22,903 bases of DNA from a virus, in the IMG/VR virus record IMGVR_UViG_3300025543_000233, positions 1-22,903 of that record; one strand, 5' to 3'. The position numbers and the translations under genes were made by a program. This document shows, in pieces, positions 4,409 through 21,704 of the stretch (the first letter of the stretch is position 1; every line of letters begins with the position of its first letter). The notes beneath the pieces are model-generated. The model saw only the letters and a program-made list of their open reading frames with translations. It was not told the origin of the DNA and did no database searches.

Positions 4409-4624
4409 TTATTTTTGTGTTGCATCTGCTCTATATAATGTTGTATCAGCTAAAAATGCTGTACCAGATATTTGCGTTAAATCTGCTGTTATAGGGAAAG
4501 TTGCCCAACAACTTGGTGCTGATATATCAGGTATAAATTCAGTTGTAAAAGCACTATCTGTACCCCAAGCAGAATTGGTTACCATTTCACAATATACTTT
4601 TCCCCAATTTATGTTATTAGCCAT
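4409..4624 (-). CDS. Small structural-region protein of unknown function
   Basis: A 71-residue protein beginning MANNINWGKVYCEMVTNSAWG, with two cysteines, several Trp and Thr and no charged clusters or membrane segment. The MANNINWGKxYC start recurs in small proteins of flavobacterial phages next to adaptor and fibre genes. It lies between the adaptor with its overlapping mini-ORF and the tail fibre. A role in virion assembly is plausible from context but cannot be shown from the sequence. Confidence 0.65.
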   Translation of the reverse strand: MANNINWGKVYCEMVTNSAWGTDSAFTTEFIPDISAPSCWATFPITADLTQISGTAFLADTTLYRADATQK

Positions 4625-4634
4625 ACTTATATAA

Positions 4635-4736
4635 TTACTTTTTAACGTTTTTGTTATACATTTTTTCTAAATAGTTTTTTAACTTAACTATATTTTGTTG
4701 TTTAGGTTTGTATCTTACTTTTATTATAGTACCCAT
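4635..4736 (-). CDS. Small basic ORF overlapping the adaptor gene (33 aa)
   Basis: An ATG at 4736, inside the last codons of the adaptor gene (4724), opens a frame of 33 residues beginning MGTIIKVRYKPKQQNIVKLK and ending in a lysine-rich tail. It occupies what would otherwise be a 99-base gap and ends eleven bases before the next ATG (4624). The codon composition matches the neighbours and the ATG-inside-stop arrangement is the same as at other junctions. No function can be named. The alternative is a chance open frame in AT-rich intergenic DNA. Confidence 0.5.
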   Translation of the reverse strand: MGTIIKVRYKPKQQNIVKLKNYLEKMYNKNVKK

Positions 4737-7155: not shown

Positions 7156-7499
7156 TATATTGTGATAAATTCGTTTGTAGTGCTATTAGAAGTATACTCA
7201 CCTTCGTTTATTGTGTAAGCTGGTAAATCTGTTTGGTTTGTACAGTATATTTTATCCATAAATACAACTGAACTACCTGAAAGTATTTTAAGTGTGTAAT
7301 AAATATCTTGTTTTACAGGAAATACAGCATTAAACCTATTGTAATATAAGTTTTGTGATATACTTGTTGTTGCTTGACTGTACACTTCTTTGTTTTGCGT
7401 TTCGTCTGTTATCTTAACCGTGTAAGATGCGTTTGCAGTAAATTCTCTTGGTATAAAATCAATATTTTGTGCTGAACCACTTTCTTGTAATACTATCAT
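7155..7499 (-). CDS. Small structural-region protein, gene preceding portal
   Basis: The ATG at 7499 gives 114 residues starting MIVLQESGSAQNIDFIPREF, a beta-rich protein with K-I-T-D-E-T-Q-N-K-E-V and Y-T-L-K-I-L-S-G segments. An upstream in-frame ATG at 7565 would translate through a rho-independent terminator and the promoter-like motif, so 7499 is the better start. The TTATTGTA box is five bases before this ATG. The stop overlaps the portal start. The beta-sandwich-like pattern suggests a small capsid or tail-associated protein (perhaps carbohydrate- or decoration-type), but no family is recognised. Confidence 0.7.
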   Translation of the reverse strand: MIVLQESGSAQNIDFIPREFTANASYTVKITDETQNKEVYSQATTSISQNLYYNRFNAVFPVKQDIYYTLKILSGSSVVFMDKIYCTNQTDLPAYTINEGEYTSNSTTNEFITI

Positions 7500-7504
7500 A
7501 TATA

Positions 7505-7531
7505 TACAATAAAAAAGTATGAAATTTGTTA
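7505..7531 (-). promoter_or_regulatory. Two-box motif (putative phage promoter), copy 1
   Basis: On the minus strand TAACAAA (7525-7531), 12 bases, TTATTGTA (7505-7512), then five bases to the ATG at 7499. The same two boxes with the same 12-base spacing occur before genes 10206, 11613 and 20638. This copy lies 10 bases beyond the T-tract of a terminator, as expected for a promoter restarting transcription. Confidence 0.65.
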
Positions 7532-7548
7532 TTATTAAAACAAAAAAA

Positions 7549-7567
7549 GGGCAGCATATTGCCACCC
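7549..7567 (-). terminator. Rho-independent terminator after tail tube gene
   Basis: Minus strand GGGTGGCA-ATA-TGCTGCCC forms an 8-bp stem with two G-U pairs and a three-base loop, followed by seven T (7542-7548). It is 24 bases past the stop of the gene ending at 7592, so it should end the capsid/tail tube transcripts. Confidence 0.8.
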
Positions 7568-7591
7568 TTAATTTACCAAATAAAAACCCTA

Positions 7592-8167
7592 TTAAGAATT
7601 TGTACCTAAAGTAATTGTTACAGTTCCATCTAAACCAGCGTAATCTGTTACACTAAATGGGAAGTCTATATCTTTTGTATCAGAATCCATAAAGTTAGCA
7701 GGAGCAATTTCTGTTGCTGCCATCGTTAATGTATATCCTGATAAATCACCCATTGCAGCACCTGTGGAAATTGTTCCACCTGTTACTTCTGCACCGTGTT
7801 CTAATCCCATCATAAACACATTACCATTATAATCTTCTACAGCAACGTGTGGTCTACCGTAAGCTAACAGTTTTAACTCTTTATTATCTTCTTTAGTAAG
7901 TTTTTTCAAAGTTAATGTTAAAGTCTGCTCAACAAAAGTTGTACCATTTTCACGTGAAGAAGTAATCGTTTGTTCAAAACTACTATTTCCTTTTAATTCG
8001 TATTTAAATGCTGTTAAACTACCAGAACTTCCTGTCATATTTGTAATTTCATCATTACTTAAAGTTACCGTACCTAAATCACCAAAATCTACGAAATAAA
8101 CATTTTTTAATCCCCCTACAACATCTTTGCAAGGTTCTTTTCTACCAAGTGTTAAATCACAAGCCAT
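7592..8167 (-). CDS. Probable major tail (tail tube) protein
   Basis: A 191-residue beta-rich protein beginning MACDLTLGRKEPCKDVVGGL and continuing K-N-V-Y-F-V-D-F-G. It contains a strand/turn segment L-E-H-G-A-E-V-T-G-G-T-I-S-T-G-A-A-M-G-D-L-S-G-Y-T-L-T of the kind seen in long-tail tube proteins, where a variant or G-G turn precedes the last sheet. The same opening occurs in major tail proteins of Bacteroidetes phages as I recall them. Its own terminators upstream (8192-8220) and downstream (7549-7567) suit a protein made in many copies. It lies by the capsid gene rather than by the tape measure gene, which is unusual. A second capsid or decoration protein is the main alternative. Confidence 0.6.
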   Translation of the reverse strand: MACDLTLGRKEPCKDVVGGLKNVYFVDFGDLGTVTLSNDEITNMTGSSGSLTAFKYELKGNSSFEQTITSSRENGTTFVEQTLTLTLKKLTKEDNKELKLLAYGRPHVAVEDYNGNVFMMGLEHGAEVTGGTISTGAAMGDLSGYTLTMAATEIAPANFMDSDTKDIDFPFSVTDYAGLDGTVTITLGTNS

Positions 8168-8191
8168 ATTTATATATTTTTAATAAAAAAA

Positions 8192-8220
8192 GGTGAGTAG
8201 GCACTACTGGCTTACCCACC
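8192..8220 (-). terminator. Rho-independent terminator after capsid gene
   Basis: Minus strand GGTGGGTA ... TACTCACC gives an 8-bp stem with one G-U pair around a 13-base loop, followed by seven T (8185-8191). It lies 22 bases after the major capsid stop (8243) and 18 bases before the next gene's T-tract-adjacent start at 8167. Confidence 0.8.
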
Positions 8221-8242
8221 TAATTTATTGGTTAATTATCTA

Positions 8243-9169
8243 TTAAGAATAAAGTACGATATCACTACCGATGCCATACTGTACACCTGCTGTAAATCTC
8301 ATTACCACTCTTACGTTTTGTGAACCGTCTATATCAGCCATATCAATAACTTTTACTTCGTTGTGGTCTGCTAAAAGACCAGTACCAAAGAATAAGTTAG
8401 ATTTTTCTGCTGCTACCATTTTGTTGTCAGATAATCCATTTGCTACAGCAATTTTAATACCATCAAAAGAAAGTCCACCACCGTTGTACCATTGTGTACC
8501 TTTATCATCTGTACCTGCTGCACCAAGATTACTTGCAAATCCACCTAATGCTCTTACATATGCTCTTGCTACGTTTTGTGAAACATAAATAAACATATCC
8601 TCTGAAGTATAGAGCGAAGAACCAATAGCATCAACTACAAGTCCTATTTTTGATATTACATTTGAAGAATCAACTGCTGCTCCACCACCTACATCAGTAA
8701 CATCTGCATCAGCTAAAAGTAATTCAGTAAAACCACCAAATTGTCCTGCTGTTGCAGCAGCACCATTCCAGATAGATTGTTCTGTACGTTGTGCTACTTT
8801 AGAAGCTACGTGACCTATTAAAAAGTCAGCAAAAGAAGGAGGTAAGCTATCAAAAGCACTATATCCCATTTGTACAGCTTCCCAATCATTGTGAAAGTCT
8901 GCTTTACATAGTTGTAAATTTACTTGCTGAAAATCAGGTTGTAAAATACGTTCTGTAAGTGTTAAAGTTGAAGTAGGATCAAAATCACAAGTTGCATCTT
9001 TTACGATGTCATCACTTGCTACTTTTTTAATCACTTCTTTAAATTTAATGTTTGGCTTAATGGTAATTAATCCATTGTCCAAAGTTGAACCACTTAAAAG
9101 TGCAGCAGAAATGTATTGCCCTGCAAATTCACCAGCATAAGTAGTAGTTATAGAATTAGTTGTTGCCAT
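8243..9169 (-). CDS. Major capsid protein
   Basis: A 308-residue protein of suitable size and composition for an HK97-fold capsid subunit. The N-terminal arm is Ser/Thr/Ala rich (MATTNSITTTYAGEFAG) and is followed by an E-loop-like charged stretch (F-K-E-V-I-K-K-V). A long central spine helix region (S-F-A-D-F-L-I-G-H-V-A-S-K-V-A-Q-R-T-E-Q-S-I-W-N-G) leads to a C-terminal domain ending G-V-Q-Y-G-I-G-S-D-I-V-L-Y-S. It follows protease, scaffold and decoration genes as expected, and has its own strong terminator, consistent with heavy transcription. The spine-helix pattern (helix with E-x-x-I/L-W-N-G) is typical of Bacteroidetes phage capsid proteins. No delta-domain cleavage site is obvious, so processing may involve the separate scaffold. 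Confidence 0.8.
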   Translation of the reverse strand: MATTNSITTTYAGEFAGQYISAALLSGSTLDNGLITIKPNIKFKEVIKKVASDDIVKDATCDFDPTSTLTLTERILQPDFQQVNLQLCKADFHNDWEAVQMGYSAFDSLPPSFADFLIGHVASKVAQRTEQSIWNGAAATAGQFGGFTELLLADADVTDVGGGAAVDSSNVISKIGLVVDAIGSSLYTSEDMFIYVSQNVARAYVRALGGFASNLGAAGTDDKGTQWYNGGGLSFDGIKIAVANGLSDNKMVAAEKSNLFFGTGLLADHNEVKVIDMADIDGSQNVRVVMRFTAGVQYGIGSDIVLYS

Positions 9170-9194
9170 TTTATTTTATTTATAAGTTTATTTA

Positions 9195-9602
9195 TTAAGA
9201 TTCACTTGCCCATACACCATCACCACCAGTTAAATACCAGTCAGTAAGTGCTACAGCTTTAAGTGTACACCAATCGCCTTTATTTGCAGTTGCTTTTGTG
9301 TTAATCCAATCTTTATCATCTACACCACCAGAAGATACTGAACCTACAGTACCGTGAATTGCATCAGTTGAAGCAGGTGAAAGTGTAATAATGTTATTAC
9401 CATCAGCACCTGTATTACGAAATGTAAATTCCATTCCAATGTTTTCAGATGTAATAGCTGGTAAAGTCATTACTTTAGCATCTGTTGCTATGTTAAATTC
9501 CGTACCTGCTTTGTTTACAGGAATATCTTGAGTAGTAGTCAAAGTTTCTTGCTCTGATCTTGCTCTCAACACATCATTTGAAGTTGTTATTGTTGTTGAC
9601 AT
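9195..9602 (-). CDS. Probable head decoration / fibre-type protein
   Basis: A 135-residue protein with a disordered Ser/Thr-rich N-terminus, then a beta domain: T-L-P-A-I-T-S-E-N-I-G-M-E-F-T-F-R-N-T-G-A-D-G-N-N and later K-G-D-W-C-T-L-K-A...W-Y-L-T-G-G-D-G-V-W. This 'TLP ... G...F.N.G ... KGDW..L.A....WY' arrangement is seen in small beta domains attached to capsids and in fibre knobs. Position between scaffold and major capsid genes suggests a capsid decoration protein. A tail or head fibre module is the alternative. Confidence 0.5.
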   Translation of the reverse strand: MSTTITTSNDVLRARSEQETLTTTQDIPVNKAGTEFNIATDAKVMTLPAITSENIGMEFTFRNTGADGNNIITLSPASTDAIHGTVGSVSSGGVDDKDWINTKATANKGDWCTLKAVALTDWYLTGGDGVWASES

Positions 9603-9609
9603 TATTTAT

Positions 9610-10206
9610 TTATTTAAAATTTGATATTTTATTTAAAACTCTATCTAATGTAGTATTCCCTCTTTTTTGTGAATACAAATTTAAATTAGGTTTGTTTTCT
9701 TTTTCAGGGTTATGAGTAACCTTTTGTACTGGTTCGCTTAATTCTTCTTTTTCAGCGTAAACAGTCTTTGTAGTTGTTTCTTCTGATTTAACAGAATTTT
9801 CACCTACAGGTTCTTCAGCCATTTCTTCTTCTTTAGGTTCAAGCATTGATTTAATTTCTTCAACCATTTCTTTAACCTCTTGAAGTTCTTCTTTAGTAGC
9901 GTAGTTCATTTCTTCTTTTTCAGCTTCTACTTCTTCTTCAGATTCAACTGCACCGATTGAAGCAATAATACCTTCTTCTTCTACAATTAATGATTCACCG
10001 TCTACAAGTTTGTATTCACCTACTGGCATTGCTACTTTTTCATCTTCGGTAACAATAAATATTTCGTTTCCAGCTTCAAAATTTTCGCTTTCAATAATTG
10101 CACCGTTTTCAAGTTCGGCTTGTGCCAACTTTACTTCTTTAGGTTCTTCAGATAACTCTACCCCAAGAACCTCTTTTACTTTGTTTAACATATCTGTTGC
10201 TTTCAT
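9610..10206 (-). CDS. Acidic coiled-coil protein, probable capsid scaffold
   Basis: A 198-residue, very acidic protein with a compact N-terminal beta region (I-F-I-V-T-E-D-E-K-V-A-M-P-V-G-E-Y-K-L) and long Glu-rich helices (about residues 85-130). A basic C-terminus ends T-L-D-R-V-L-N-K-I-S-N-F-K. A charged elongated middle with a short basic, capsid-binding C-terminus is the design of phage scaffolding proteins. The location between the protease and the capsid gene fits. The recurring 'N-G-A-I-I-E ... G-x-x-I-F-I-V-T-E-D-E' N-terminal segment is one I recall from marine phages. The protease at 11613 would be expected to remove it after assembly. Confidence 0.65.
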   Translation of the reverse strand: MKATDMLNKVKEVLGVELSEEPKEVKLAQAELENGAIIESENFEAGNEIFIVTEDEKVAMPVGEYKLVDGESLIVEEEGIIASIGAVESEEEVEAEKEEMNYATKEELQEVKEMVEEIKSMLEPKEEEMAEEPVGENSVKSEETTTKTVYAEKEELSEPVQKVTHNPEKENKPNLNLYSQKRGNTTLDRVLNKISNFK

Positions 10207-10212
10207 ATATAA

Positions 10213-10239
10213 TACAATAAATTAATAAATAGTTTGTTA
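10213..10239 (-). promoter_or_regulatory. Two-box motif (putative phage promoter), copy 2
   Basis: TAACAAA (10233-10239), a 12-base spacer, TTATTGTA (10213-10220), then six bases to ATG 10206 of the scaffold-like gene. The box pair lies in the 38-base gap after the gene ending at 10245. Confidence 0.65.
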
Positions 10240-10244
10240 CATTT

Positions 10245-10607
10245 TTAGTTTGCTGCTTGACACGCTGCACAATCGTTATATAATGTTACAGCACTAAAAT
10301 GATGACCGTGTGCGTTTTGGTCTTGGCTTAATACGGTATAACAACCATCGTGGTTATTGTGATCAGCATTTATATAATATACATTGCCTATTACTAATTG
10401 TGTAGAACCGTAAAAGTGCTTTTTTTGGCTATGTCCACACTTTTGTACTCTGTAACCGTATTCTCCTGCACTTGGTGTTTCTATTGTTGCTGTTACATTT
10501 CCTACGCCTTGTGCTTGGAAGCTACCATCGCAACATTCTATAGAATATGTATCATCTTTACATAAGCAACCTCTACGACCTGATTGTGGACTTGGTATTC
10601 TACTCAT
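10245..10607 (-). CDS. Cysteine/histidine-rich small structural-region protein
   Basis: A 120-residue protein with eight Cys and several His. It starts MSRIPSPQSGRRGCLCKDDT and continues Y-S-I-E-C-C-D-G-S-F-Q-A-Q-G. A second region contains C-G-H-S-Q-K-K-H-F-Y-G-S and H-N-N-H-D-G-C-Y-T-V-L, with a terminal C-A-A-C. The G-R-x-G-C-L-C-x-D-x-T-Y-S-x-x-C-C-D-G-S segment recurs in structural proteins of marine Bacteroidetes and related phages. Several of these residues could coordinate a metal, or form disulfides in a virion surface protein. It is encoded between the protease and the scaffold, with one base to the protease gene, so a head role is likely but unproved. Confidence 0.65.
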   Translation of the reverse strand: MSRIPSPQSGRRGCLCKDDTYSIECCDGSFQAQGVGNVTATIETPSAGEYGYRVQKCGHSQKKHFYGSTQLVIGNVYYINADHNNHDGCYTVLSQDQNAHGHHFSAVTLYNDCAACQAAN

Positions 10608-10608
10608 A

Positions 10609-11613
10609 TTATTTTATTGGTACGCAATTAGGTACTTTTTTACCGTTTTTCATTTTAAACCCTATCATTTCATAACCACTATAACAAGGTTTTTTTAATT
10701 CTTCTTCTATTAAATCAAGTTCTTTTAGTTTAGCACCTGCCCAACGTAAACCAGCTTTACCACCCCACAATAAATAAGATATAGTACCACACGCTTTACT
10801 ATCACTTTCATCGTAATCTTCTTGCGCCCTACTTAAATAGCTAAACATCCTTTTAATTGTTTCAGTTGTTATTGGTTTCCCTTGTGCTAATTGTTGCGCT
10901 CTTACTTTTCCTACTTGTGTTGCACACTTGTTGTTCACCTTTTCGTTTAATTCAATACCTCTTTTAGCATTATTTTTTACACCACTTGGATAATCAGAAT
11001 AAGATTCTAAATTTTCTTCTTTTAGTATATGCTTTAATTCATCAACTAATTCGTTAGCCATTTCCTCCTGTTCAGACATCTGATCTTTTACAGGTTCGTT
11101 AGGTCTTTGTAATTTATCAGCAAAGTAACCTTCTATACTAAATCCTTTTACTTCACCATCTTTTACTTTTTTCCAAACATCATCGTTATTAACTTTCATA
11201 GATACCATCCAAGTACCAATAGGTACGTTTAAATCGTACATTCTACTTTTATCTTGTTCACTTTCTACTATCCAACTTTCTACAGCAGTTAAACCTTTAA
11301 GTTCTAATTGGTGTTCTAATGTAGAGTTGTTTTGGTTTCCTTTTATAAAAAATAATTCACTTGCTTTACGTACAGTTGCTTGACTAAAGTAGATATAATA
11401 TTCTTGTTCGCCATTTTTACGATAGATAGGTTTGTTAGGTATTAAGGCTGCACCCATAAGGATACGTTTTTCTTTATCTACTTCTGCAAGTTTAAACTCT
11501 TGGTTTTTAAGTGCTATAAAGTTTTCTTCTATTGCTGGGTTTTCTACTACTGATATTGCTTCAATTCCAGAAACCTCATCGTTTTCATCTATAAAAAGTT
11601 CTACTATGTCCAT
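10609..11613 (-). CDS. XkdF-like prohead protease fused to a helical domain and Cys tail
   Basis: A 334-residue protein with three parts. The N-terminal region (about 1-180) has the outline of the XkdF/prohead protease family: L-M-G-A-A-L-I-P-N-K-P-I-Y-R, a loop with E-H-Q-L-E, V-E-S-W-I-V-E-S and G-T-W-M-V-S-M-K-V...V-K-G-F-S-I-E-G-Y-F, the last being the usual end of the core, with S/H residues as likely catalytic. A middle helical part (about 205-300) contains Y-P-S-G-V-K-N-N-A-K-R-G-I-E-L-N and V-G-K-V-R-A-Q-Q-L-A-Q-G-K-P-I...W-G-G-K-A-G-L-R-W-A, a module I have seen in other phage proteins. The C-terminus is G-Y-E-M-I-G-F-K-M-K-N-G-K-K-V-P-N-C-V-P. It probably matures the prohead. Confidence 0.7.
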   Translation of the reverse strand: MDIVELFIDENDEVSGIEAISVVENPAIEENFIALKNQEFKLAEVDKEKRILMGAALIPNKPIYRKNGEQEYYIYFSQATVRKASELFFIKGNQNNSTLEHQLELKGLTAVESWIVESEQDKSRMYDLNVPIGTWMVSMKVNNDDVWKKVKDGEVKGFSIEGYFADKLQRPNEPVKDQMSEQEEMANELVDELKHILKEENLESYSDYPSGVKNNAKRGIELNEKVNNKCATQVGKVRAQQLAQGKPITTETIKRMFSYLSRAQEDYDESDSKACGTISYLLWGGKAGLRWAGAKLKELDLIEEELKKPCYSGYEMIGFKMKNGKKVPNCVPIK

Positions 11614-11618
11614 ATTAT

Positions 11619-11645
11619 TACAATAATTATTTGTCTATTTTGTTA
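11619..11645 (-). promoter_or_regulatory. Two-box motif (putative phage promoter), copy 3
   Basis: TAACAAA (11639-11645), exactly 12 bases, TTATTGTA (11619-11626), then five bases to ATG 11613 of the protease gene. The upstream box overlaps the TAA stop of the tape measure gene (11643-11645). It is a candidate start for the head module. Confidence 0.65.
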
Positions 11646-13163
11646 TCCAATTGATGCACCTTCTACTATATTACGTTCTAATGCTTGTGCGTTAGTTACT
11701 TCGTTACTTACTACAAATGCTTTTATAGGTTTTTCTTCTTGTTCGCCTATTGTTTGCGCTAATTGGTTTTCAGGTGCTGCTCCTACTACGTTAAAACTTG
11801 GTGCTTGAGGTGCTGAAGCCTCACCTCTTGAACCTGCCATACCACCTCCTTTTGGTGTTTTAACACCTATTATCTTTTTAACCGTTTGAATACCTGATGC
11901 TAATATACCTGCTGCTGATATTGCTTTTTGTATTGAACCGAATGGTTCTGGTATTACTGATGGTGTAGCTAATATTTGACTAAACCCTAAATAACTATTA
12001 ATAGTTGCTTGTGCTATAGCTGCTGCTTTTCCTGCTGCACTATTTTCGCCTAACAAAGCTGCTACACCACCTAACGCTTGTGCAGTTAAGTCTAACTTTT
12101 GTTGTGCTGTTAACTCATCTTCTGCTTGTTCTTGTTTTGACGTTTGTGTTTTTAAATTGCTTAAATCAGCAACAGATATCTTTTGTTGTTCTATGCCTTT
12201 AGCCTGTATTTGGTTTATAGCATCACTTTGTTTTTGTATTGCATCAAGTTCTGCTTTACGTTCTGCTGCTTTTTTATCAGCTTCCATTTTACGCAACCCT
12301 GCTGCAACACCTAATAATTCTTTGTTTTTAAGTATGCGTTGTTCTTCAAGACCAATTACGTTAGCTATTAATTGTGCTTCTTCATCTAAATCTTCTTTTT
12401 TTGATCCACTGAAGGTATTTTCTTGAATTTTTATATCTCGCCTTGTTTCTGCTAATTTTACTTCTTTTGCTGTAATTTCATCTTCTAATGATGCTGCTTT
12501 TTCTAAAAATGCAATACGTTGTTCTGCTGTAAATTTATCTACTTCTGCTGCTTTTGTTTTTAGTTTGTTTATTTCAACATTTGTTTTTGCCCTTTCAATT
12601 AAAAGTTCTCTTTCAAGTTTATTAGCATCTGCTATTTTATCAGCAAGTTCACCAGCTATTTTTATTTCTTTTTGTGTTTCTTTTCCAAAGTTTTTAACCC
12701 TATTGCTAAATTCATCAAACGCTTCACCTGCTGCTTTTAAATCCCTATCAACAAAAACAGCTATTATTATATTCCCTAAACTTGAAAATATATCTGTAAC
12801 ATTACCAGCAATAATACCAAGTTGTTTTAATATTTTTGCAAATTTGTTTTGCCCTGCTTCACTTGATGTGAAGGCTGCTGTTAAAGCTGTAACTGCTATT
12901 ATTAGAGCACCAATACCTGTAGCTATGATTGCACCTCTTAATGTTTTAAAACCACCAATAACACCTTTTAATGTACCTGTAAAACCTTTAAACTTTGTGA
13001 TAGCACCACCAGTTACAGAATCTAATTGGTTACCCATTTCTTCAGTATTAGCAGTAACTTGTTTTGTTTCTTCGCTAACCTCTTGTATTGAATCTTGTAA
13101 GTCTTCAGCGTTATCTATTGCGCTTTTGGTTTTTAACTCAACGTCAATTACTACCTTTTCCAT
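11643..13163 (-). CDS. Tape measure protein
   Basis: A 506-residue protein, long-helical and Ala/Lys/Glu/Gln rich, with three hydrophobic segments early (about residues 60-150, such as AIIATGIGALIIAVTALTAA). Coiled-coil stretches (about 150-370) are followed by an Ala/Gly-rich later part with A-A-I-A-Q-A-T-I-N-S-Y-L-G-F-S-Q-I-L. The order of N-terminal glycine/hydrophobic segments, coiled coil and C-terminal A-T-x-x-S/A-Y motif is typical for tape measure proteins. At about 0.15 nm per residue it would set a tail near 76 nm, short for a siphovirus. It is the last gene of the tail block and ends at the promoter-like motif before the protease. Confidence 0.85.
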   Translation of the reverse strand: MEKVVIDVELKTKSAIDNAEDLQDSIQEVSEETKQVTANTEEMGNQLDSVTGGAITKFKGFTGTLKGVIGGFKTLRGAIIATGIGALIIAVTALTAAFTSSEAGQNKFAKILKQLGIIAGNVTDIFSSLGNIIIAVFVDRDLKAAGEAFDEFSNRVKNFGKETQKEIKIAGELADKIADANKLERELLIERAKTNVEINKLKTKAAEVDKFTAEQRIAFLEKAASLEDEITAKEVKLAETRRDIKIQENTFSGSKKEDLDEEAQLIANVIGLEEQRILKNKELLGVAAGLRKMEADKKAAERKAELDAIQKQSDAINQIQAKGIEQQKISVADLSNLKTQTSKQEQAEDELTAQQKLDLTAQALGGVAALLGENSAAGKAAAIAQATINSYLGFSQILATPSVIPEPFGSIQKAISAAGILASGIQTVKKIIGVKTPKGGGMAGSRGEASAPQAPSFNVVGAAPENQLAQTIGEQEEKPIKAFVVSNEVTNAQALERNIVEGASIG

Positions 13164-13300
13164 AATCCATTTTTATATTGTTCGTATCCTTCTTTTATTG
13201 ATTCAGGAAACTTATTTTTACCCATAGCTATATCTATATATTTTCCGTTCCATTTTTCGCTTCTTGCAAATTCTAATAAATCTAATATATTCTGTATCAT
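13151..13300 (-). CDS. Small tail-region protein (49 aa)
   Basis: The preferred start is the ATG at 13300, ten bases after the end of the tail-tip gene. An earlier ATG at 13342 would overlap that gene by 32 bases and add 14 residues. The 49-residue protein reads MIQNILDLLEFARSEKWNGK, then Y-I-D-I-A-M-G-K-N-K-F-P-E-S-I. It overlaps the tape measure start by 13 bases, so it is translationally coupled. No function is recognised. Presumably it is a small assembly or tip-associated factor. Confidence 0.6.
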   Translation of the reverse strand: MIQNILDLLEFARSEKWNGKYIDIAMGKNKFPESIKEGYEQYKNGLWKR

Positions 13301-13310
13301 ATCTTTTTGT

Positions 13311-16300
13311 TTAAGATGTACTTTGTAAATCACCATTTGCATCCCCTATTGAATATGTTCCAGAAGTAGCAAGTGAACCAGTAACTGTACCACCTTTTAT
13401 CATTACTACAGGGTATGTATTTAAGAACATTACATACTTAACTTTTGCGTTAGTTTTATTTGTCATATTAAACATACTTGAATTGTTTGCACCAAATCTA
13501 TCTAACGCTTTAAAAGTGTGTGATATATCATAATATGTATCTACTGCTGGTAATGCTGTACTTGTTAACCATTCTATTATTTCTTTAGCAGTATCTACTG
13601 TTAAATTATTAATTTGATAAATTATAAAACCTTCTTGATCTTCACCACCATAATTTTTGAAGTTAGCTTTGAAAAACCCTAAAGGTGATGTATCTGTTAA
13701 GTATCCTGTACTACCTGCAACTCCTACAAGGTTTTCGCCATTTGCATTGTTATATTGACTTACTGCTGATGGTACAGTAGATGCACTTACAACACTACTA
13801 ATAACATCTGCTTTATCGTTTTGTACATCGGTGTTAGTTCTTGCATAGAATCTATAATAAAGTATAGCAGGGTGTGTTAAACCTGCTTTCTCGTAAGTGC
13901 TTTTTACAGATAAACCGTTATCTAATAAAACTTTAATTACTGCTAACGTAGGTGTAAACGGTACAGTAGTAACATCACCAAATGCTTTTAACGTATCAAT
14001 GTCATCTGTAGAACTTAAATTAGTTAATGATGTAGAATATAAATAACCATACTCATCTAATTTTTGTGTATTACCTACTTTACCTATTGCAGTTATTTGA
14101 TGACTGAAGAATACTTTTGTTGTTGTGGATACAGGTATTTGATCTACTTCTATTGTAGGAGGTGTAACTGTTAAACTTGTGTTTGTAAATACACTTGCTG
14201 GGTTGTTTACTGTTGCACTTGGTATACCTGTTTTTATACTTGGTAATGTAAATTGGCTATCGTTTCCTGAATCTACTTTAACATCTATTGTATCAGCAGT
14301 AATTGTATTAGTATCAGCAGTTAAACCATTATCTTGTAATACTTTTAACGTTTTAAATACAGGTTCTTCAAATATGTTTGTTAATTCTAAACTACTTTGT
14401 TCTGTTTCAAAGTTTGTAGATATTTTGTTAATTCTATATTCGTTATTATTTAATATAAACTTATCAGCTAAATCTAATTTAAAAATAATGTTCATTGGTA
14501 AATACGCTTTTACGCTTGTAAGTCTTTTGCGTAAATCAAACATATCTTTTACATACGTTTCATAATATGTTTTAAATAAACTTTTATTATTTACTTGCCT
14601 TGAAAACTCATCAAATTCTGCATTAAAGTTTAAACTTTGTTTACCTGCTAAATACGTACTACCTTTATCTTCACAATTTAAGGGGATATATGGGTTTGCT
14701 ACAGATTCACCAGAAGTATTAGCTAAATTTAAAGTTCGTATTGTTGCAGTAGATTTTGTAGCATAAAATATAAGTGGTTTTCCAAGATATGGGCTTTGGC
14801 TTTCATCTACAGAATAACCGTATTGCACACCACTATCATTAACGCTTACTACATTATTAGCTTGTATAAATAAGTGTTCATATTTAAAATGCTCAAAGGG
14901 TAGTTCTATATTATATACCTTACCATCATATTTGTTAGGTGCTTCGTAATCTAACGCACCCCATTTAGTATTTGCTATTTGGTAATGGTTGTTTGCTAAA
15001 AAACTATCTGTACCTTCATAAGCAAAATCTATTTCTTTAAATGGCAATACAGCATCTGTAATTGTTTCTGTTTTATCTATAAATGGTGTTATATCGTGTA
15101 CGGTTGTACTACTTGCATAAAAGTTATCTAAAGTTTTTACTTGTATAATACCATTGTTATCTTGAAATGCTGTAAGGTTAAACATTTTAAATATACCTGT
15201 AAGAAAGTCTATTACTTTTATGTCTGGTACTAATTGTAATGGGTTAGCAGGATCGTCAGAAGTTTTTGCAGCAGTTAATTGAAATGAGCCTTTTGGTCTT
15301 GATAGTAATGTACCATCTTTATCTACTATTAATTCTACTGTTATTGTATAACTTGATACAGCTTCTGTTTCTATAAAAAATGTAAATACACCATCTTCGT
15401 GATCTAACCAATCTTTATATTTTAGTGTGCCTGTTTGCCCTAAAGAAGTAGTACCTGTTAAACCTTCAAATCTTTGAAACTCTTGTCCATCCTTTTTAAT
15501 AACCAAAGTGTAAACAGCAGCACCTGATGGCACTACTATTACATTCATTCTCCTAAATATTTTAGAATGGTTTTTGCCTTTATAATAATCCCTTGCAATT
15601 ATATCATCTAAAAAAGAAGAATAACTTGCATTTTTAAATCCTGTAAAAAATTGTTTTTTATCAACTACGTTTGTAATGTTTTTACCTTGATATTGTGCAT
15701 CTTGGTTTGTTTGGAAATCACCTTCTTTGTTGTGCATCCACATATACAAATTAAAGAAAGCAGTATTTGTACTATTAAAGAAGTCTGTACTAAATGTTAA
15801 ACCATATTCTATTTCTATTGCTTGTATTATAGCAAGTAATCTAATTGCAGGTTTTAATTGGCTATAAGGCACACCGTAGTTTGTACTCGTACCTGCTGCT
15901 GGGTTTATGTTTTTAATAGTATCAGTATTTACTACTGCTGAATTACTATCAAATAAAAGTCTTGCAGTATGTGTTATTAAAGGTACTATTACTGCATCAG
16001 TCATTGTACCTGTAGGTGTAACAACATCTAAACCGTTTGCCATATATGTAGATATGTTTGTATCAGTCCAATCAAAAGAATACTTGCCTAACTGATCTAA
16101 AGCACTTAACTTATCTTCACCTACTACATCTTTTAGGTTTATAGTATCACCATAAAAAGTTAGCTTGTATGTATGTGGTTCGTTGTTTTTAAGCTGTACA
16201 CCTTCAAGTTTTATTTTACCTTTTTTAAATAGCTTATAGTTGAGGTATAATTCAGATGGTGTTTTTTTACGTGCATCAAAACCTTCTATATTAAAATTAT

Positions 16301-16478
16301 AAAAGTGTTGAAATATTTTGTTGTTTATTTTAGAAGCAGGTACATTAAAGGTTTGTGTAAAAGGTACAAACACTTTTTGTATATCTTTTATGTCTTGTAT
16401 TGATTGTGTTAATACAATGCTTTCATCCTTAAACAGTTCAACCTGTTGACCATCAAAATATATTTGTAGTTGTAGCAT
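13311..16478 (-). CDS. Large tail-tip / baseplate hub protein
   Basis: A 1055-residue protein starting MLQLQIYFDGQQVELFKDES, followed by I-V-L-T-Q-S-I-Q-D-I-K-D-I-Q-K-V-F-V-P-F-T-Q-T-F-N-V-P-A-S-K-I-N-N-K. This stretch is characteristic of a large tail protein in Bacteroidetes phages, next to the tape measure gene. The first 650 residues look beta-rich and hub-like (F-K-E-I-D-F-A-Y-E-G...Y-G-Y-S-V-D-E). From about residue 760 there are Ig/FN3-like stretches (D-E-Y-G-Y-L-Y-S-T-S). It likely forms the tail tip that holds the tape measure end and links to fibres. The start shares one base with the upstream stop (TAATG at 16476-16480). The exact equivalent (distal tail versus hub) is not settled by sequence. 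Confidence 0.7.
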   Translation of the reverse strand: MLQLQIYFDGQQVELFKDESIVLTQSIQDIKDIQKVFVPFTQTFNVPASKINNKIFQHFYNFNIEGFDARKKTPSELYLNYKLFKKGKIKLEGVQLKNNEPHTYKLTFYGDTINLKDVVGEDKLSALDQLGKYSFDWTDTNISTYMANGLDVVTPTGTMTDAVIVPLITHTARLLFDSNSAVVNTDTIKNINPAAGTSTNYGVPYSQLKPAIRLLAIIQAIEIEYGLTFSTDFFNSTNTAFFNLYMWMHNKEGDFQTNQDAQYQGKNITNVVDKKQFFTGFKNASYSSFLDDIIARDYYKGKNHSKIFRRMNVIVVPSGAAVYTLVIKKDGQEFQRFEGLTGTTSLGQTGTLKYKDWLDHEDGVFTFFIETEAVSSYTITVELIVDKDGTLLSRPKGSFQLTAAKTSDDPANPLQLVPDIKVIDFLTGIFKMFNLTAFQDNNGIIQVKTLDNFYASSTTVHDITPFIDKTETITDAVLPFKEIDFAYEGTDSFLANNHYQIANTKWGALDYEAPNKYDGKVYNIELPFEHFKYEHLFIQANNVVSVNDSGVQYGYSVDESQSPYLGKPLIFYATKSTATIRTLNLANTSGESVANPYIPLNCEDKGSTYLAGKQSLNFNAEFDEFSRQVNNKSLFKTYYETYVKDMFDLRKRLTSVKAYLPMNIIFKLDLADKFILNNNEYRINKISTNFETEQSSLELTNIFEEPVFKTLKVLQDNGLTADTNTITADTIDVKVDSGNDSQFTLPSIKTGIPSATVNNPASVFTNTSLTVTPPTIEVDQIPVSTTTKVFFSHQITAIGKVGNTQKLDEYGYLYSTSLTNLSSTDDIDTLKAFGDVTTVPFTPTLAVIKVLLDNGLSVKSTYEKAGLTHPAILYYRFYARTNTDVQNDKADVISSVVSASTVPSAVSQYNNANGENLVGVAGSTGYLTDTSPLGFFKANFKNYGGEDQEGFIIYQINNLTVDTAKEIIEWLTSTALPAVDTYYDISHTFKALDRFGANNSSMFNMTNKTNAKVKYVMFLNTYPVVMIKGGTVTGSLATSGTYSIGDANGDLQSTS

Positions 16479-17458
16479 TATCTAACATTATTAATTCTAT
16501 CAAACGCAAAATCAAACTCTACTGTATAATTTATTAGTTTGTCATTTAAAGAAGTTTTGTATTGTAATGATTTAGATTTAGGTATTACTGCAAGTGTTTT
16601 GTTTTCATATCTTATATAAACGTTTTCACTATAAAATAGTTCTTCTATTGTTTGGTTCATAATCTCACTCACAAAACCAGTATTCATAGTTAAAGAAGTT
16701 TGTGCATTTACATTTATTCTACCCCTTTGGTTATCGTAAGTGTTATAGTTTGATGAGGTGTTTGTTATTATATTCTTTTTAAATAACTCATCTGTTACGT
16801 TTGTTACTTCGCTTGTTTTCTTAAAGAAATATAAATCTTGAAATGCACCGAACTTGTTGATAAAGGTTATTTTAAATGGTGTGTATTTAGGTTCACAAAT
16901 ATTAGATATTGTTATTGTTTTTTTAAGTGTAGTATCATCTGTATCAAAAACTTGTATTGATGATTTATCTGCTGGTATTGTAACGTATTGTATTTTTTGG
17001 TTTGTATTACCGTTATCTGTTATTTGTGTTGTTACACCATCTATTATAACTTTACCTACACCTTCTGCAAATATTGGCAACTTACCTGCTGTACCTTCTG
17101 GTAAATATATATTAGTTGAACTTATCAATGCGTGTCTATCTAATTCAGGGTTAGTGCCTTCTTCAAAATAACCATATCCATCTAATGCAACGTAAGTTGT
17201 TACAATAGGGTTTGTTTCAAAAGGTTCATCACTATCATCAAAAGAACTTACAACCGTTCTAACATATCTTGCAATAGAATTGTAATCATCATTAAATGTA
17301 ATGGTAAAATAATCTCTTACAAGTTCTGCTATTTCTAAAGTTATATTTGTTTGTCCACTTATAACACTTTTATTTATTGTATATGCAGGTGATACAGGTT
17401 GATCGGATTCTGTACCATCCCATACATATAAATCTACTACTACGCTTTTTAAACTCAT
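16478..17458 (-). CDS. Tail tip-associated protein, possible distal tail protein
   Basis: A 326-residue, beta-rich protein beginning MSLKSVVVDLYVWDGTESDQ, with F-I-N-K-F-G-A-F-Q-D-L-Y-F-F-K-K-T-S-E-V-T and V-N-A-Q-T-S-L-T-M-N-T-G-F-V-S-E-I-M-N. The C-terminus ends in Y-T-V-E-F-D-F-A-F-D-R-I-N-N-V-R. The 'F-I-N-x-x-G-A-x-x-x-x-x-F' segment recurs in structural proteins of Bacteroidetes phages immediately upstream of the large tail-tip gene. It probably binds the tail tip or forms the distal collar. It lies four bases after the repeat-containing protein and overlaps the start of the tail-tip gene. Confidence 0.6.
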   Translation of the reverse strand: MSLKSVVVDLYVWDGTESDQPVSPAYTINKSVISGQTNITLEIAELVRDYFTITFNDDYNSIARYVRTVVSSFDDSDEPFETNPIVTTYVALDGYGYFEEGTNPELDRHALISSTNIYLPEGTAGKLPIFAEGVGKVIIDGVTTQITDNGNTNQKIQYVTIPADKSSIQVFDTDDTTLKKTITISNICEPKYTPFKITFINKFGAFQDLYFFKKTSEVTNVTDELFKKNIITNTSSNYNTYDNQRGRINVNAQTSLTMNTGFVSEIMNQTIEELFYSENVYIRYENKTLAVIPKSKSLQYKTSLNDKLINYTVEFDFAFDRINNVR

Positions 17459-17462
17459 AATT

Positions 17463-18944
17463 TTATACTATTACACCAACACCACCTCCTGTTGTATCAC
17501 AAGAAACTATTGCTAATTCACTTACTATTCCTGTACTTTCTATTTTTATAACATAATAACTACCAACACCTGCACCAACCGAACTAACAACAAATGCAGT
17601 AAATACACCGTAGTATAAACCTTTACCATCAAAAGCTACATCACCTTGACAAACTTGGCTATTTAGTAATGCTCCTAAACTTGCTGCTGTTGAGGTTATT
17701 AATTTAGGTGTTCCATAAGTTGCATCACAATGACCTTCTTGTGTTGATTTAGCAGAACTTAAATAAAATTGATTTGTACCACATATACTTACCGTTGCTG
17801 GTTGTGTCATTGTTACACTACAATCTATTGTTGATCCTGCATTTGCATATCCTGATGGTATTTCTATTTGATATACAACAGTTCTTGAAGTATCAGTTGC
17901 TACATCTGTAAAAGGTGTTGTAGGTGCTGTAAAACTTTTAACCGTACCTAATGATGCTGTACCTAAAAATATAGCACCATTTCTTGCTATTGCTTGACCT
18001 GTTAAATTAGCTAATGAACAAGTAAATGTAGGTGCTGCTGTACCAGGTTGTGAAAAGGTTGCAGAACATTCTACCGTAGCACTTGCGTTAGAATAACCTG
18101 ATGGTACTGTAATATTAAAAAACAATGTAACGTTTTGTGCGTTTGTACCTGAATTTGCTGCTACACTTGTTATTGCACCTCCACCAGATGTAGCCATTAT
18201 TTTTGTTATCGTACCTATTGTTGATGGGTTTGTTATTACACCTGCTTGACTAATACCTCCACCTTGTAAAGCTGGGTTTGTAGGTGCAGTACAACTAAAT
18301 GCAGTAGTACTATCTGTAACTGTAACAGCTATGCTTTGTGTTGCTTCACAAGTTGCTGGGTAGCTATTATCCCTACCAATACCATAAACTGTTGTTGATC
18401 CTGCTATAACGTTTGGTGATAATGTTAATACACTACCACTTAATGCTGCTGTTACTAATGTAGGGTTTAGGTTAGAAGCATCGTATGTTGTTTCACCTGT
18501 AAAGAATCCTGCTAAATCAATATCTACACTTGAACCACCTACACTTAAACTTTGCCCACCAATAGAACCTGATGTTGTTACTGTTGTTGTACATACAGTA
18601 GGCTGTACTACAGAACTTGTTGTACCTGCTTGTGTTGCAGTAACAGGGCATTCAAAAAATATATCACTTGTATTTGCATAACCTGTAGGTATAAGCAGTT
18701 TAATTTTAATGGTTCTTGATGTATCAGTACCTTCTGCTGGGAATTTGTTATTTGCAAAATCACCATCATCACTCGATATAGAATCTATAACCCCAACTGC
18801 TGGACTTGGCAAAGTAATAATACCTTGATTATCTACTGCAAAACCTACTAACCCTGCTACCGTACAATCAAAGTTTGGTAATGGAGGACTTGGTTCTACA
18901 AGGTGTAAATAAAATGGACTTCTAACGTTTATTTTTGTACTCAT
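17463..18944 (-). CDS. Repeat-containing beta-rich tail protein
   Basis: A 493-residue Ser/Thr/Gly-rich protein with three related units at about residues 24-107, 215-302 and 306-385. Each opens with F-x-C, has a central hydrophobic G-x-I segment and ends with I-P-S/T-G-Y-A/S-N followed by C-x-V/A-T-x-x-Q-P/A-G/A-T. Each unit therefore carries a cysteine pair. Between the first and second lies a different Ig-like region (about 125-210). The C-terminal 105 residues contain four more Cys and a glycine-rich end (TTGGGVGVIV). Such surface repeats suit a tail decoration or receptor-binding protein; a tail fibre is the alternative. Start shares a base with the upstream stop (TAATG). Confidence 0.65.
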   Translation of the reverse strand: MSTKINVRSPFYLHLVEPSPPLPNFDCTVAGLVGFAVDNQGIITLPSPAVGVIDSISSDDGDFANNKFPAEGTDTSRTIKIKLLIPTGYANTSDIFFECPVTATQAGTTSSVVQPTVCTTTVTTSGSIGGQSLSVGGSSVDIDLAGFFTGETTYDASNLNPTLVTAALSGSVLTLSPNVIAGSTTVYGIGRDNSYPATCEATQSIAVTVTDSTTAFSCTAPTNPALQGGGISQAGVITNPSTIGTITKIMATSGGGAITSVAANSGTNAQNVTLFFNITVPSGYSNASATVECSATFSQPGTAAPTFTCSLANLTGQAIARNGAIFLGTASLGTVKSFTAPTTPFTDVATDTSRTVVYQIEIPSGYANAGSTIDCSVTMTQPATVSICGTNQFYLSSAKSTQEGHCDATYGTPKLITSTAASLGALLNSQVCQGDVAFDGKGLYYGVFTAFVVSSVGAGVGSYYVIKIESTGIVSELAIVSCDTTGGGVGVIV

Positions 18945-19456
18945 TATTTTCTAAATAAATTGTTTATGTCTTCACCAAAAGCAAATGCTAAATCATCAGG
19001 TAATTTTTTAAATGCTTGTTCAAATGGTTTAGTAAAGAACAAACTTGGTTTTAATCCTTTTCTGTATATACTTCTTGCTATTAAAAACCCTATTGTATTA
19101 TAGTTGCCTTTTTTAAACTTACCTTCTTTATCTCTTAACCTTATGTTTTTGCTTTTTGCCCATTGTGCTAACGGTTTAATTGGGGGCATTTTGTTTGTAT
19201 ATGAAAATGGTGTATCGTATTTGTTTTCTGTTCCACTAACACCACGATCTTGGTACATACCGTAATCTTCCATTTCAAAAGATAAGGTGTTTTTTTTGTT
19301 ATCTAAAAAATAAGCAAGGCTTTTATATAGTTGACCATCTGATGAGGTTGTACCCTTACCTTTTTTTGATTTGTTTTTAGATAATCTTGTTCTTGCTTGT
19401 TGTACTACAAACTTACCAAACTTATTAAGTTCTTTATTTATGTTTTCTAACTGCAT
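18944..19456 (-). CDS. HK97 gp10-like tail completion / neck protein
   Basis: A 170-residue basic protein with an N-terminal helix (MQLENINKELNKFGKFVVQQ), then S-S-D-G-Q-L-Y-K-S-L-A-Y and M-P-P-I-K-P-L-A-Q-W-A-K-S-K-N-I. It ends with G-L-K-P-S-L-F-F-T-K-P-F-E-Q-A-F. These elements (an S-G-x-L-x-x-S strand, an L-x-x-W-A-x-x-x-x-I helix and F-F...P-F) fit the HK97 gp10-like family, which acts at the head-tail junction or tail terminus. It overlaps the upstream tail completion gene by 10 bases, which is consistent with the pair of terminator-type proteins often encoded side by side. Confidence 0.65.
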   Translation of the reverse strand: MQLENINKELNKFGKFVVQQARTRLSKNKSKKGKGTTSSDGQLYKSLAYFLDNKKNTLSFEMEDYGMYQDRGVSGTENKYDTPFSYTNKMPPIKPLAQWAKSKNIRLRDKEGKFKKGNYNTIGFLIARSIYRKGLKPSLFFTKPFEQAFKKLPDDLAFAFGEDINNLFRK

Positions 19457-19905
19457 ATTGTCATATCGTTTTGTACTAATACGTCAAAGGTTGCTGACCA
19501 CCCTGCTAACTTGTTTTCAAACCTATCTACAAATGGTTCACAACTTACATCACCCTGTACTTGGTAGAGGTTAGTATATAGATCACCACGTTGTAAGATG
19601 TTTATTATTCTTGTTAGTAATCCTAATTGTGTATTTAGTACATCTTGTTCGTTATCGTTTCCTACAAATATGTCAGTTGTTTCTGCTTTGCTTATATCTA
19701 CAATATCCATTGATAATATAGAAATGTTAAACGTTAATGTTTTAGTTCCTACAGTTGTGTTGTTTACAATTATATGGCTTAATGGGAATATAGTTTGCTT
19801 GTTTAAATCTACATCATCTAAACTACCAAATGTAACCGTGTTAACAAATGGTTCTGCTGCAAGTGCTGTTTTTAATTGTTCCGTTACGTTGTAAAAACCT
19901 TTCAT
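19447..19905 (-). CDS. Tail terminator-like / tail completion protein
   Basis: A 152-residue protein of alpha/beta character, starting MKGFYNVTEQLKTALAAEPF. It has a strand-rich middle with L-S-M-D-I-V-D and then D-N-E-Q-D-V-L-N-T-Q-L-G-L-L-T-R-I-I-N-I-L helix, G-D-V-S-C-E-P-F-V-D-R-F-E-N-K-L-A-G-W and a C-terminal beta strand ending in M-T-I-C-S. The helix plus 'E-P-F-x-x-x-x-x-N-x-L-A-G-W' segment is common to proteins encoded next to gp10-like genes in Bacteroidetes phages, and the size matches tail terminators. Its ATG overlaps the stop of the -1 frame of the upstream chaperone (ATGA at 19902-19905), which supports that frame being translated. Confidence 0.55.
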   Translation of the reverse strand: MKGFYNVTEQLKTALAAEPFVNTVTFGSLDDVDLNKQTIFPLSHIIVNNTTVGTKTLTFNISILSMDIVDISKAETTDIFVGNDNEQDVLNTQLGLLTRIINILQRGDLYTNLYQVQGDVSCEPFVDRFENKLAGWSATFDVLVQNDMTICS

Positions 19906-20638
19906 CGTTTTTTAATTAACTTCTTTTCTAATTCTACTTTATCTTTTTCAAATGACAAATACATTAAACATTGGTGGACATTAAGCTGGGTAACCTCGTC
20001 AAACTTGGTAGCATCTCCTTTAGCAATACCATAGACTGACTGATACCAGCCCCACTTTGTCCCAAACGTTCCCTCTGTTGAATAGTCAAGTTCTTGGGTA
20101 ACTCCTTCTGTAAATAGTTCAGGATAGTTTGCGTTAACTCGTTGCTTAAATGATAAAAAAAAACCATAGAACCAAACACAATATCTAAAGGCATATACTT
20201 TAGGTTGTCGTTCATACCTTTGTATTCTTCTATATTGTACTTGTTACCTTTCTTAAATTTAATTGGTCTGTATAACACGCTCATTGCTTTGTGCATATTA
20301 TCCCAATTGCCCAAGTTCTCATCCAGATCAATAAACTCACCTAAAGACATATCATCAAGTACAGGTATAAATCCATACTCTACATTGCCTAAAGTAAACG
20401 TAGGTACTAAACTATGCTTCTTATCAAATATCTTGTTGAGGTGTACTACTATCTCTTGTACTGATTTGTATTTTATGTTTGCAACATCCTTTAAGTTAAG
20501 GCTGCAAAATATCTCTACCATCTTTTGTAGTAAAAATGTAGATTCTTTATTTTCTTCTGTATTTAACTTTTCAAATCTTTGGTATTGATCTAAAGTTATT
20601 TCTTTAAGTGAATCAGGTACGTTTATTTCAACTTTCAT
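19902..20638 (-). CDS. Tail assembly chaperone, predicted -1 frameshift product (245 aa)
   Basis: If ribosomes slip -1 within the T-run (20155-20163), the product keeps the first 161 residues and continues for 84 more: L-S-F-K-Q-R-V-N-A-N-Y-P-E-L-F-T-E-G-V-T..., then F-G-T-K-W-G-W-Y-Q-S-V-Y-G-I-A-K-G-D and K-F-D-E-V-T-Q-L-N-V-H-Q-C-L-M-Y-L-S-F-E-K-D-K-V-E-L-E. The aromatic K-W-G-W-Y and terminal charged helix resemble the second domain of tail chaperones (lambda GT-type), and the frame has no usable start codon of its own before its last 30 codons. It ends in an ATGA overlap with the next gene. An undercounted T (ten instead of nine) would instead join the frames permanently. Confidence 0.7.
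19964..20638 (-). CDS. Tail assembly chaperone, 0-frame product
   Basis: A 224-residue protein from ATG 20638. An earlier in-frame ATG at 20689 would translate the terminator hairpin and the two-box motif, so 20638 is preferred. It begins MKVEINVPDSLKEITLDQYQ, is charged and helical, and contains F-G-S-M-V-F-F-Y-H-L-S-N-E-L (about 154-167), a pattern I associate with tail assembly chaperones of Bacteroidetes phages. It is the first gene of the tail block, the place of G/GT-type chaperones in other siphoviruses. At residues 159-161 it crosses a run of nine T, where a -1 shift would yield a different C-terminus. The last 63 codons of this frame are read also in the -1 frame. Confidence 0.7.
   Translation of the reverse strand: MKVEINVPDSLKEITLDQYQRFEKLNTEENKESTFLLQKMVEIFCSLNLKDVANIKYKSVQEIVVHLNKIFDKKHSLVPTFTLGNVEYGFIPVLDDMSLGEFIDLDENLGNWDNMHKAMSVLYRPIKFKKGNKYNIEEYKGMNDNLKYMPLDIVFGSMVFFYHLSNELTQTILNYLQKELPKNLTIQQRERLGQSGAGISQSMVLLKEMLPSLTRLPSLMSTNV
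20155..20163 (-). other. Putative -1 slippery site (nine T)
   Basis: In the 0 frame the sequence is GTT TTT TTT TAT, so P- and A-site tRNAs can re-pair perfectly after moving back one base. It lies at codons 159-162 of the chaperone. The -1 frame remains open from here to 19902. Downstream stimulatory RNA structure was not assessed. Confidence 0.65.
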
Positions 20639-20643
20639 ATTAA

Positions 20644-20670
20644 TACAATAAATTAATTGGTGTTTTGTAT
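20644..20670 (-). promoter_or_regulatory. Two-box motif (putative phage promoter), copy 4
   Basis: ATACAAA (20664-20670), 12-base spacer, TTATTGTA (20644-20651), then five bases to ATG 20638 of the tail chaperone. It abuts the T-tract (20671-20681) of the preceding terminator. In this copy ATACAA and TTGTAT also form a perfect inverted repeat 16 bases apart. Confidence 0.65.
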
Positions 20671-20681
20671 AAAAAGAAAAA

Positions 20682-20699
20682 GGTAACATTTCTGCTACC
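20682..20699 (-). terminator. Rho-independent terminator before tail module
   Basis: Minus strand GGTAGCA-GAAA-TGTTACC is a 7-bp stem with one G-U pair and a GAAA tetraloop, followed by TTTTTCTTTTT (20671-20681). It ends the small-gene unit 28 bases past the stop at 20728. Confidence 0.8.
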
Positions 20700-20727
20700 T
20701 AATTCTCAACCCAAACCAAATGAAAAG

Positions 20728-21639: not shown

Positions 21640-21704
21640 TGATATAATTTTAATTAAACTTTGTTTTACTTTGTAAATATACAACTATTTATTTAATTAA
21701 CAAA
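21640..21704 (-). promoter_or_regulatory. Promoter-like region after terminase
   Basis: Two overlapping signals lie in this AT-rich gap on the minus strand. The first is TTTG (21701-21704), 19 bases, TATATTTA (21674-21681), near the Bacteroidetes consensus. The second is AAACAAA (21660-21666), 12 bases, TTATATCA (21640-21647), a weak relative of the two-box motif one base before the ATG at 21638. Either could drive the small-gene unit. Confidence 0.4.

Follow-up and report, generated by a model that had tools for sequence, protein, structure and literature searches.

A 25-base two-part signal marks most late-gene blocks in a group of uncultured marine phages. Sequence comparison suggests that it is likely to be a late promoter read by a phage-encoded sigma factor, mostly giving leaderless mRNAs. 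The signal was analysed in the IMG/VR virus record IMGVR_UViG_3300025543_000233, a metagenomic contig taken over its full 22,903 bases (the window), which is apparently a fragment of a phage of ~30–34 kb. The gene for the terminase large subunit (TerL) lies at the right edge of the window, and the structural genes run leftward on the minus strand. An earlier sequence-only reading had described four minus-strand copies of the signal, and all are present with an exact 12-base gap between the boxes, 5, 5, 6 and 5 bases in front of the ATGs at 20638, 11613, 10206 and 7499. Both intrinsic terminators that it had placed beside promoter copies are found as well. A fifth copy, before the same gene in most relatives, had been overlooked. 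The putative promoters and the terminators are as follows.

20644..20670, minus strand: late promoter copy ATACAAA-N12-TTATTGTA before the gene of a 224-amino-acid (aa) protein; predicted start 20638, the A of the ATG
11619..11645, minus strand: late promoter copy upstream of the head maturation protease gene, TAACAAA-N12-TTATTGTA; transcript predicted to start at 11613
10213..10239, minus strand: late promoter copy upstream of the probable scaffold gene, TAACAAA-N12-TTATTGTA; ATG 10206, 6 bases on
7505..7531, minus strand: late promoter copy upstream of the 114-aa gene that precedes the portal, TAACAAA-N12-TTATTGTA; transcript predicted to start at 7499
4630..4656, minus strand: fifth promoter copy TAACAAA-N12-TAATTATA, 5 bases before ATG 4624
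20681..20700, minus strand: intrinsic terminator (stem), T-tail abutting the 20644–20670 promoter
7547..7569, minus strand: intrinsic terminator (stem) upstream of the 7505–7531 promoter

On both strands of the window, exact matches to WWACAAA-N12-TTATTGTA are confined to the first four of these copies, compared with a mean of 0.006 (maximum 1) in 1000 first-order Markov shuffles of the window, or 0.001 when an ATG behind the match is also required. With up to three mismatches allowed there is no enrichment (26 matches in the window, 23.6 expected), so the signal resides in the exact form and loose matching is useless. A chance origin of the copies is ruled out by the shuffles and by the specificity for a 12-base gap in relatives (see below). 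E. coli-type sigma-70 promoters are found 88 times where 89 are expected. The host is probably a member of the Bacteroidota, as suggested by host-type promoters, a Nonlabens phage relative and matches in Bacteroidetes metagenome-assembled genomes (MAGs), all described below. Promoters of the Bacteroidota sigma factor, sigma-ABfr, have the consensus TTTG / TANNTTTG, with T and A at −12 and −11 (PMC6847099); none of the five copies has the TANNTTTG −7 element. A "less perfect version" of the motif previously noted at 21640–21666 falls below the score threshold and does not belong to the motif; the same gap holds a host-type promoter.

Searches of IMG/VR with the capsid and terminase proteins recovered at least 160 related contig stretches, likewise metagenomic; here and below, all IMG/VR counts are lower bounds, among the matches listed. 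Across about 160 related loci, ACAAA-N12-TTATTGTA occurs 111 times, in 80 distinct contexts, while any other gap from 5 to 24 bases gives 0–4 occurrences. The features shared by 44 diverse copies are TAACAAA, a spacer that is merely A/T-rich, TTATTGTA, and T as the final base before the ATG. When sites were called with a re-estimated matrix at 5% false discovery, each relative carried about 4–7 strong sites before the same seven gene families: the small terminase, the 224-aa gene (20638 in the window), the protease, a small gene that the window lacks, the scaffold, the 114-aa gene before the portal, and the 71-aa gene (4624). The position of the fifth copy is conserved in G003, G004, G007, G009, G014, G015, G017, G018 and G019, and the 20644–20670 copy precedes the same gene in G003, G004 and G019, with a variant form in most relatives. 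Fourteen genomes together hold 92 strong box matches. Of these, 80 are on the late strand immediately ahead of a gene, in 59 cases with an ATG 5–7 bases behind; none of the nine opposite-strand matches is placed in this way. Standing before structural genes and being rare elsewhere in the genome, the motif is distributed as a late promoter of the phiEco32 type is. The scan of relatives that the sequence-only reading had called for therefore bears it out: the motif precedes late genes rather than falling at random, and it is conserved with fixed spacing and direction. A blind scan of IMG/VR for TAACAAA-N12-TTATTGTA-N5-ATG, made without protein information, returned at least 118 stretches, and 70 of the 72 new loci among the matches listed encode proteins of this phage group.

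The relatives fall into classes by the form of promoter found at orthologous positions. Class A is TAACAAA-N12-TTATTGTA-N5-ATG, and class B consists of an ACAAA-like box, 13–14 bases, GTTAT, 6 bases and the ATG; in both, the upstream box lies ~30 bases before the ATG. The label class C is given to promoters at the protease and 114-aa gene positions of G051 (L446) and G058 (L466), which are neither A nor B. In G011 and G015, all 11 promoters read carry TTATTATA/TAATTATA or a one-base variant, and the G of TTATTGTA is replaced by A in every one, a concerted change such as is expected of a single trans-acting reader. The sequence-only reading had raised an operator as a main alternative; here this would mean ACAA-N16-TTGT half-sites bound by a repressor or activator dimer. 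ACAA and TTGT are indeed inverted, and one copy reads ATACAA-N16-TTGTAT, but the symmetry is not conserved: the base before ACAAA is A in ~81–89% of sites, where a palindrome needs T, and class B promoters retain ACAAA while GTTAT replaces the other half. Moreover, gene-linked strong sites are oriented toward the gene in 80 of 80 cases. A palindromic operator was rejected because of the lost symmetry, and we consider an operator function highly improbable.

As for what reads the promoter, the sequence-only reading had named a phage-specific sigma factor as a possibility, and a candidate resembling the extracytoplasmic function (ECF) type has now been found in the relatives, with a tree that fits promoter class. 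The sole cultured relative found by capsid, Nonlabens phage P12024S, encodes a protein annotated as sigma-70 region 2 near its terminase. Each near-complete class A contig that was examined encodes a homologue, as do the class B contigs G005, G006, G013, G020, G022, G024, G050 and G052 and all eight of the 29–33 kb contigs from the blind motif scan that were checked; almost all near-complete relatives thus have the gene. In the relatives the protein is ~180 aa long and ECF-like, and it matches PHROG 1740 'RNA polymerase sigma factor' (E 3e-10). An AlphaFold model from a 19-row alignment (predicted local distance difference test, pLDDT, 79) has two helical domains, and every one of its top Foldseek matches is an ECF sigma from an initiation-complex structure (E. 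coli sigmaE, M. tuberculosis sigmaL and sigmaH). The C-terminal part superposes at 1.8 Å on region 4 of sigmaE in its complex with −35 DNA, with a template modelling (TM) score of 0.77–0.79. The modelled layout is that of an ECF sigma factor, with sigma2 and sigma4 domains, neither region 1.1 nor sigma3, and ~180 aa. The phage protein is thus likely an ECF-type sigma factor, judged from PHROGs, the fold and homology to the annotated isolate protein.

Outside the group, the G004 sigma has no match among 50,697 cultured-phage records, and the class B sigma has weak matches to the Nonlabens phages P12024S/L alone. Three matches occur in bacterial genomes (29–47% identity), all on short Bacteroidetes MAG contigs that are possibly phage. 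Contig G048 (L472, L487) contains two sigma-profile matches, one full length and the other spanning profile positions 83–166 only. The sigma frames of L478 (G073) and L486 (G049) have one internal stop each (TAA and TGA), from sequencing error, decay or a frame problem.

Co-variation was evaluated in 31 genomes with capsid, sigma and promoter all in hand. On the capsid tree, promoter class needs 7 changes, 4 of them for class B and all forced by well-supported branches. On the sigma tree it needs 4, and class B needs only 1, occupying one side of a single branch (support 93/89). The capsids of G004 and G048 are nested among class B capsids, yet their promoters and sigmas are class A; G049 is the reverse case, though its sigma sits on a very long branch. 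The sigmas of the class C contigs G051 and G058 also form long branches. From the fewer changes on the sigma tree and the mismatches of G004, G048 and G049, promoter class follows sigma rather than the adjacent capsid gene. Capsid genes have apparently been exchanged between members (L005-L084, G001-G058), and the sigmas of G003 and G004 are 96% identical while their capsids come from different clades.

This pattern also bears on the proposal that the motif is a promoter but owes its specificity to a phage activator, or to a modified polymerase, acting together with the host sigma, while the sigma-like protein of the phage serves other genes. Activators often set transcription in other phages, and the −10 part of the motif retains T−12 and A−11 at the host distance. 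However, the host −7 element almost always contains TTTG, which is missing from TTATTGTA; conservation is sharp in both boxes and the gap between them is rigid, as expected if one sigma touches both; and promoter class tracks the sigma tree. We therefore judge this proposal improbable.

Where transcription begins is suggested by sites with a gene at least 10 bases away, which are free of start-codon constraint at the position in question. A T-purine pair occupies bases 5–6 after the box in 46 of these 58 displaced sites (next best position 29). Aligning the T and A of TATTGTA with −12 and −11 of the host element would put +1 at the A wherever the ATG follows the box after five bases, and the gap is exactly 5 in 88 of the 107 distinct sites with an ATG 5–8 bases behind. 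Since the T-purine signature and this alignment agree, most late operons are predicted to be leaderless, their mRNAs probably starting at the A of the ATG. The earlier suggestion of leaderless mRNAs is supported to that extent by the T-purine pair in displaced-gene sites; it is not universal, the small-terminase operon and others being predicted to have a short leader. The motif lies 25–31 bases before the small-terminase ATG and 18 before some scaffold genes. The small-terminase mRNA is predicted to carry a leader of ~20–26 bases, while the scaffold-operon mRNA, at sites with 6–7 bases to the ATG, is predicted to be nearly leaderless.

A variant compatible with the sigma-read promoter has transcription starting several bases off the ATG, leaving very short leaders. 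The wider gap at scaffold sites and the different spacing of the −10-like box in class B fit such a variant, and start choice can wobble by 1–3 bases. The T-purine pair in displaced sites and the predominance of a gap of exactly 5 both count against it, and it appears possible but unlikely. Scarcely credible is an RNA element in the 5′ leader, either a hairpin, which had been the other main alternative, or a translation signal. The motif does adjoin start codons, and an A at −3 and at −6 is favorable to initiation in flavobacteria (PMC6847099), but the four copies do not fold (minimum free energy −0.1 to −0.6 kcal/mol, z 0.16 to 0.85), and a hairpin was rejected for want of a stable fold. The same motif also stands well away from the small-terminase and some scaffold start codons, and two copies lie right behind terminators, with scant room for an upstream promoter.

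Under the favored reading, which we consider likely, the motif is a late promoter recognized by the phage sigma. This ECF-type protein of ~180 aa, with sigma2 and sigma4 only and encoded ~5 kb upstream of the terminase genes, would displace the host primary sigma on host RNA polymerase. Sigma4 would read (W)WACAAA and sigma2 would read TTATTGTA, with transcription starting 6 bases after TTATTGTA. In most late operons the start base would be the A of the ATG, giving an mRNA that is leaderless, or nearly so at a gap of 6–7. Where the gene lies further downstream, as in the small-terminase and certain other operons, the mRNA would carry a leader of roughly 10–30 bases. Early or accessory genes would use host-type TTTG/TANNTTT(G/A) promoters. 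We infer that this sigma binds the motif, that the host core polymerase is used and that starts fall at the A of the ATG. A bolder generalization seems to us evenly balanced between true and false: uncultured marine Bacteroidota phages would make most late proteins from strictly leaderless mRNAs, with an ECF-sigma −10 element fused to the start codon, and would switch specificity by joint change of the sigma and all its promoters.

Several observations weigh against the favored reading. Pfam Sigma70_r2 and r4_2 match the sigma of the relatives below their cut-offs, so that Pfam alone would have overlooked it; the P12024S homologue scores above the cut-off. A sequence-profile search of the PDB gave no sigma chain above chance, and the model has a predicted TM score of 0.42 with a low-confidence linker at 78–97. 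The 22.9-kb window itself carries no sigma gene. None is expected there, because the contig stops at the terminase, before the position of the gene in G004, whose terminase is 100% identical to that of the window and whose sigma gene lies ~5 kb upstream of it; we infer that the window's own phage has one. G012 has class B promoters and no recognizable sigma, on a contig that looks like a join of two phages. Some branches of the capsid tree are weak and some of the sigma tree are long (G049, G051, G058), and a second regulator linked to sigma could produce the same tree pattern. Finally, translation starts in flavobacteria likewise favor A at these two positions, −3 and −6, and the bases by the ATG may serve translation too. 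As a separate observation, G012 (L188-L190; 49,843 bases) contains two unrelated terminase/portal/protease/tail modules, at ~3–25 kb and 36–48 kb, and is probably mis-joined.

A phage sigma with its own late promoters is already known: phiEco32 and 7-11 encode a sigma and have late promoters before structural genes, with the consensus tAATGTAtA in phiEco32 (PMC4331800). As in those phages, the sigma described here is distant from the housekeeping family, and structural genes lie on late promoters and early genes on host promoters (PMC4331800). The −10-like cores are similar (tAATGTAtA in phiEco32, TTATTGTAt here). Unlike phiEco32, the phages analysed here conserve an upstream box strongly, rigidly spaced at 12 bases, and have a box abutting the start codon. 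They also differ in phage lineage and in the phylum of the host, and no anti-sigma factor was found in them. The phiEco32 sigma is of the ECF type. The candidate shares with bacterial ECF sigmas (E. coli sigmaE, M. tuberculosis sigmaL/sigmaH) the sigma2–sigma4 layout, the ~180-aa length and a fold matching initiation complexes, and AAC, present in the upstream box, is reminiscent of ECF −35 boxes. It differs from them in being phage-encoded, in its 13–19% identity in structural alignment, in the A/T-rich −10 and in that no anti-sigma was identified. Compared with sigma-ABfr promoters, the spacing of T−12 and A−11 to the start can match, and host-type copies occur elsewhere in these phages, but both boxes differ and host mRNAs mostly have leaders (PMC6847099). 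Among the mRNAs predicted for F. johnsoniae, 87% carry a leader longer than 10 nucleotides, with a mean of 33 (PMC6847099). Nonlabens phage P12024S (NC_018271) resembles these phages in its gp33, the sigma-70 region 2 protein near the terminase, and in a related capsid protein (31%); unlike in these phages, its sigma is very distant (E ~1e-8 to the profile). Upstream of its corresponding genes no motif of this kind was recognized, and a simple class B search found nothing.

What is new is the rigid upstream box, the −10 element fused to the start codon, the phage group with its probable host phylum, and the sigma–promoter classes. The literature search turned up no account of the motif, nor of late promoters giving leaderless mRNAs in phages of this kind, which is weak evidence of novelty as the search mostly lacked subscription journals. 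An abundant uncultured phage group would gain a readable late-gene switch, comprising a sigma gene and 5–7 promoters per genome, and at least two classes of naturally matched sigma–promoter pairs would become available for studying how ECF specificity evolves. If the reading holds, leaderless late mRNAs would occur in a phylum that does without Shine-Dalgarno sequences and usually gives its mRNAs leaders, and they are predicted to be the rule in phages of this phylum. For gene finders, the box would fix the true start codon in these phages.

The genes of the window that bear on the late region are listed below.

19964..20638, minus strand: 224-aa protein, phrog_32199 (a PHROG of unknown function); opens the block that follows the 20644 promoter
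10609..11613, minus strand: head maturation protease (Peptidase_S78_2, XkdF-like), by family match
9610..10206, minus strand: probable scaffold, matching the C-terminal part of phrog_24921
8243..9169, minus strand: probable major capsid protein; gene used for the phylogenetic contrast
7155..7499, minus strand: 114-aa protein in front of the portal, function unassigned
5230..7155, minus strand: portal protein (phrog_33693, E 1e-105)
4409..4624, minus strand: 71-aa protein behind the fifth promoter, function unassigned
21673..21704, minus strand: host-type promoter TTTG-N19-TATATTTAC behind the terminase gene, not a member of the motif; the gene at 21638 is probably transcribed from it

Among the gene labels of the sequence-only reading, protease and portal are confirmed by family matches and scaffold is plausible, while 'tail module' for the 20638 gene is not borne out, its PHROG having no assigned function. 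The N-terminal part of phrog_24921 matches the window protease and its C-terminal part the probable scaffold. The promoter at 21673–21704 fits the TANNTTTG −7 element approximately and would leave a leader of ~35 bases with repeated ACAAA. The same promoter type follows TerL in G003, G004, G011, G014, G015, G016 and G018, nearly identical in several, and would represent a second transcription system for small genes within the late region. At 2906–3805, also on the minus strand, the window encodes a 299-aa, very glycine/serine-rich protein, probably a tail-fibre-like or adhesive virion protein.

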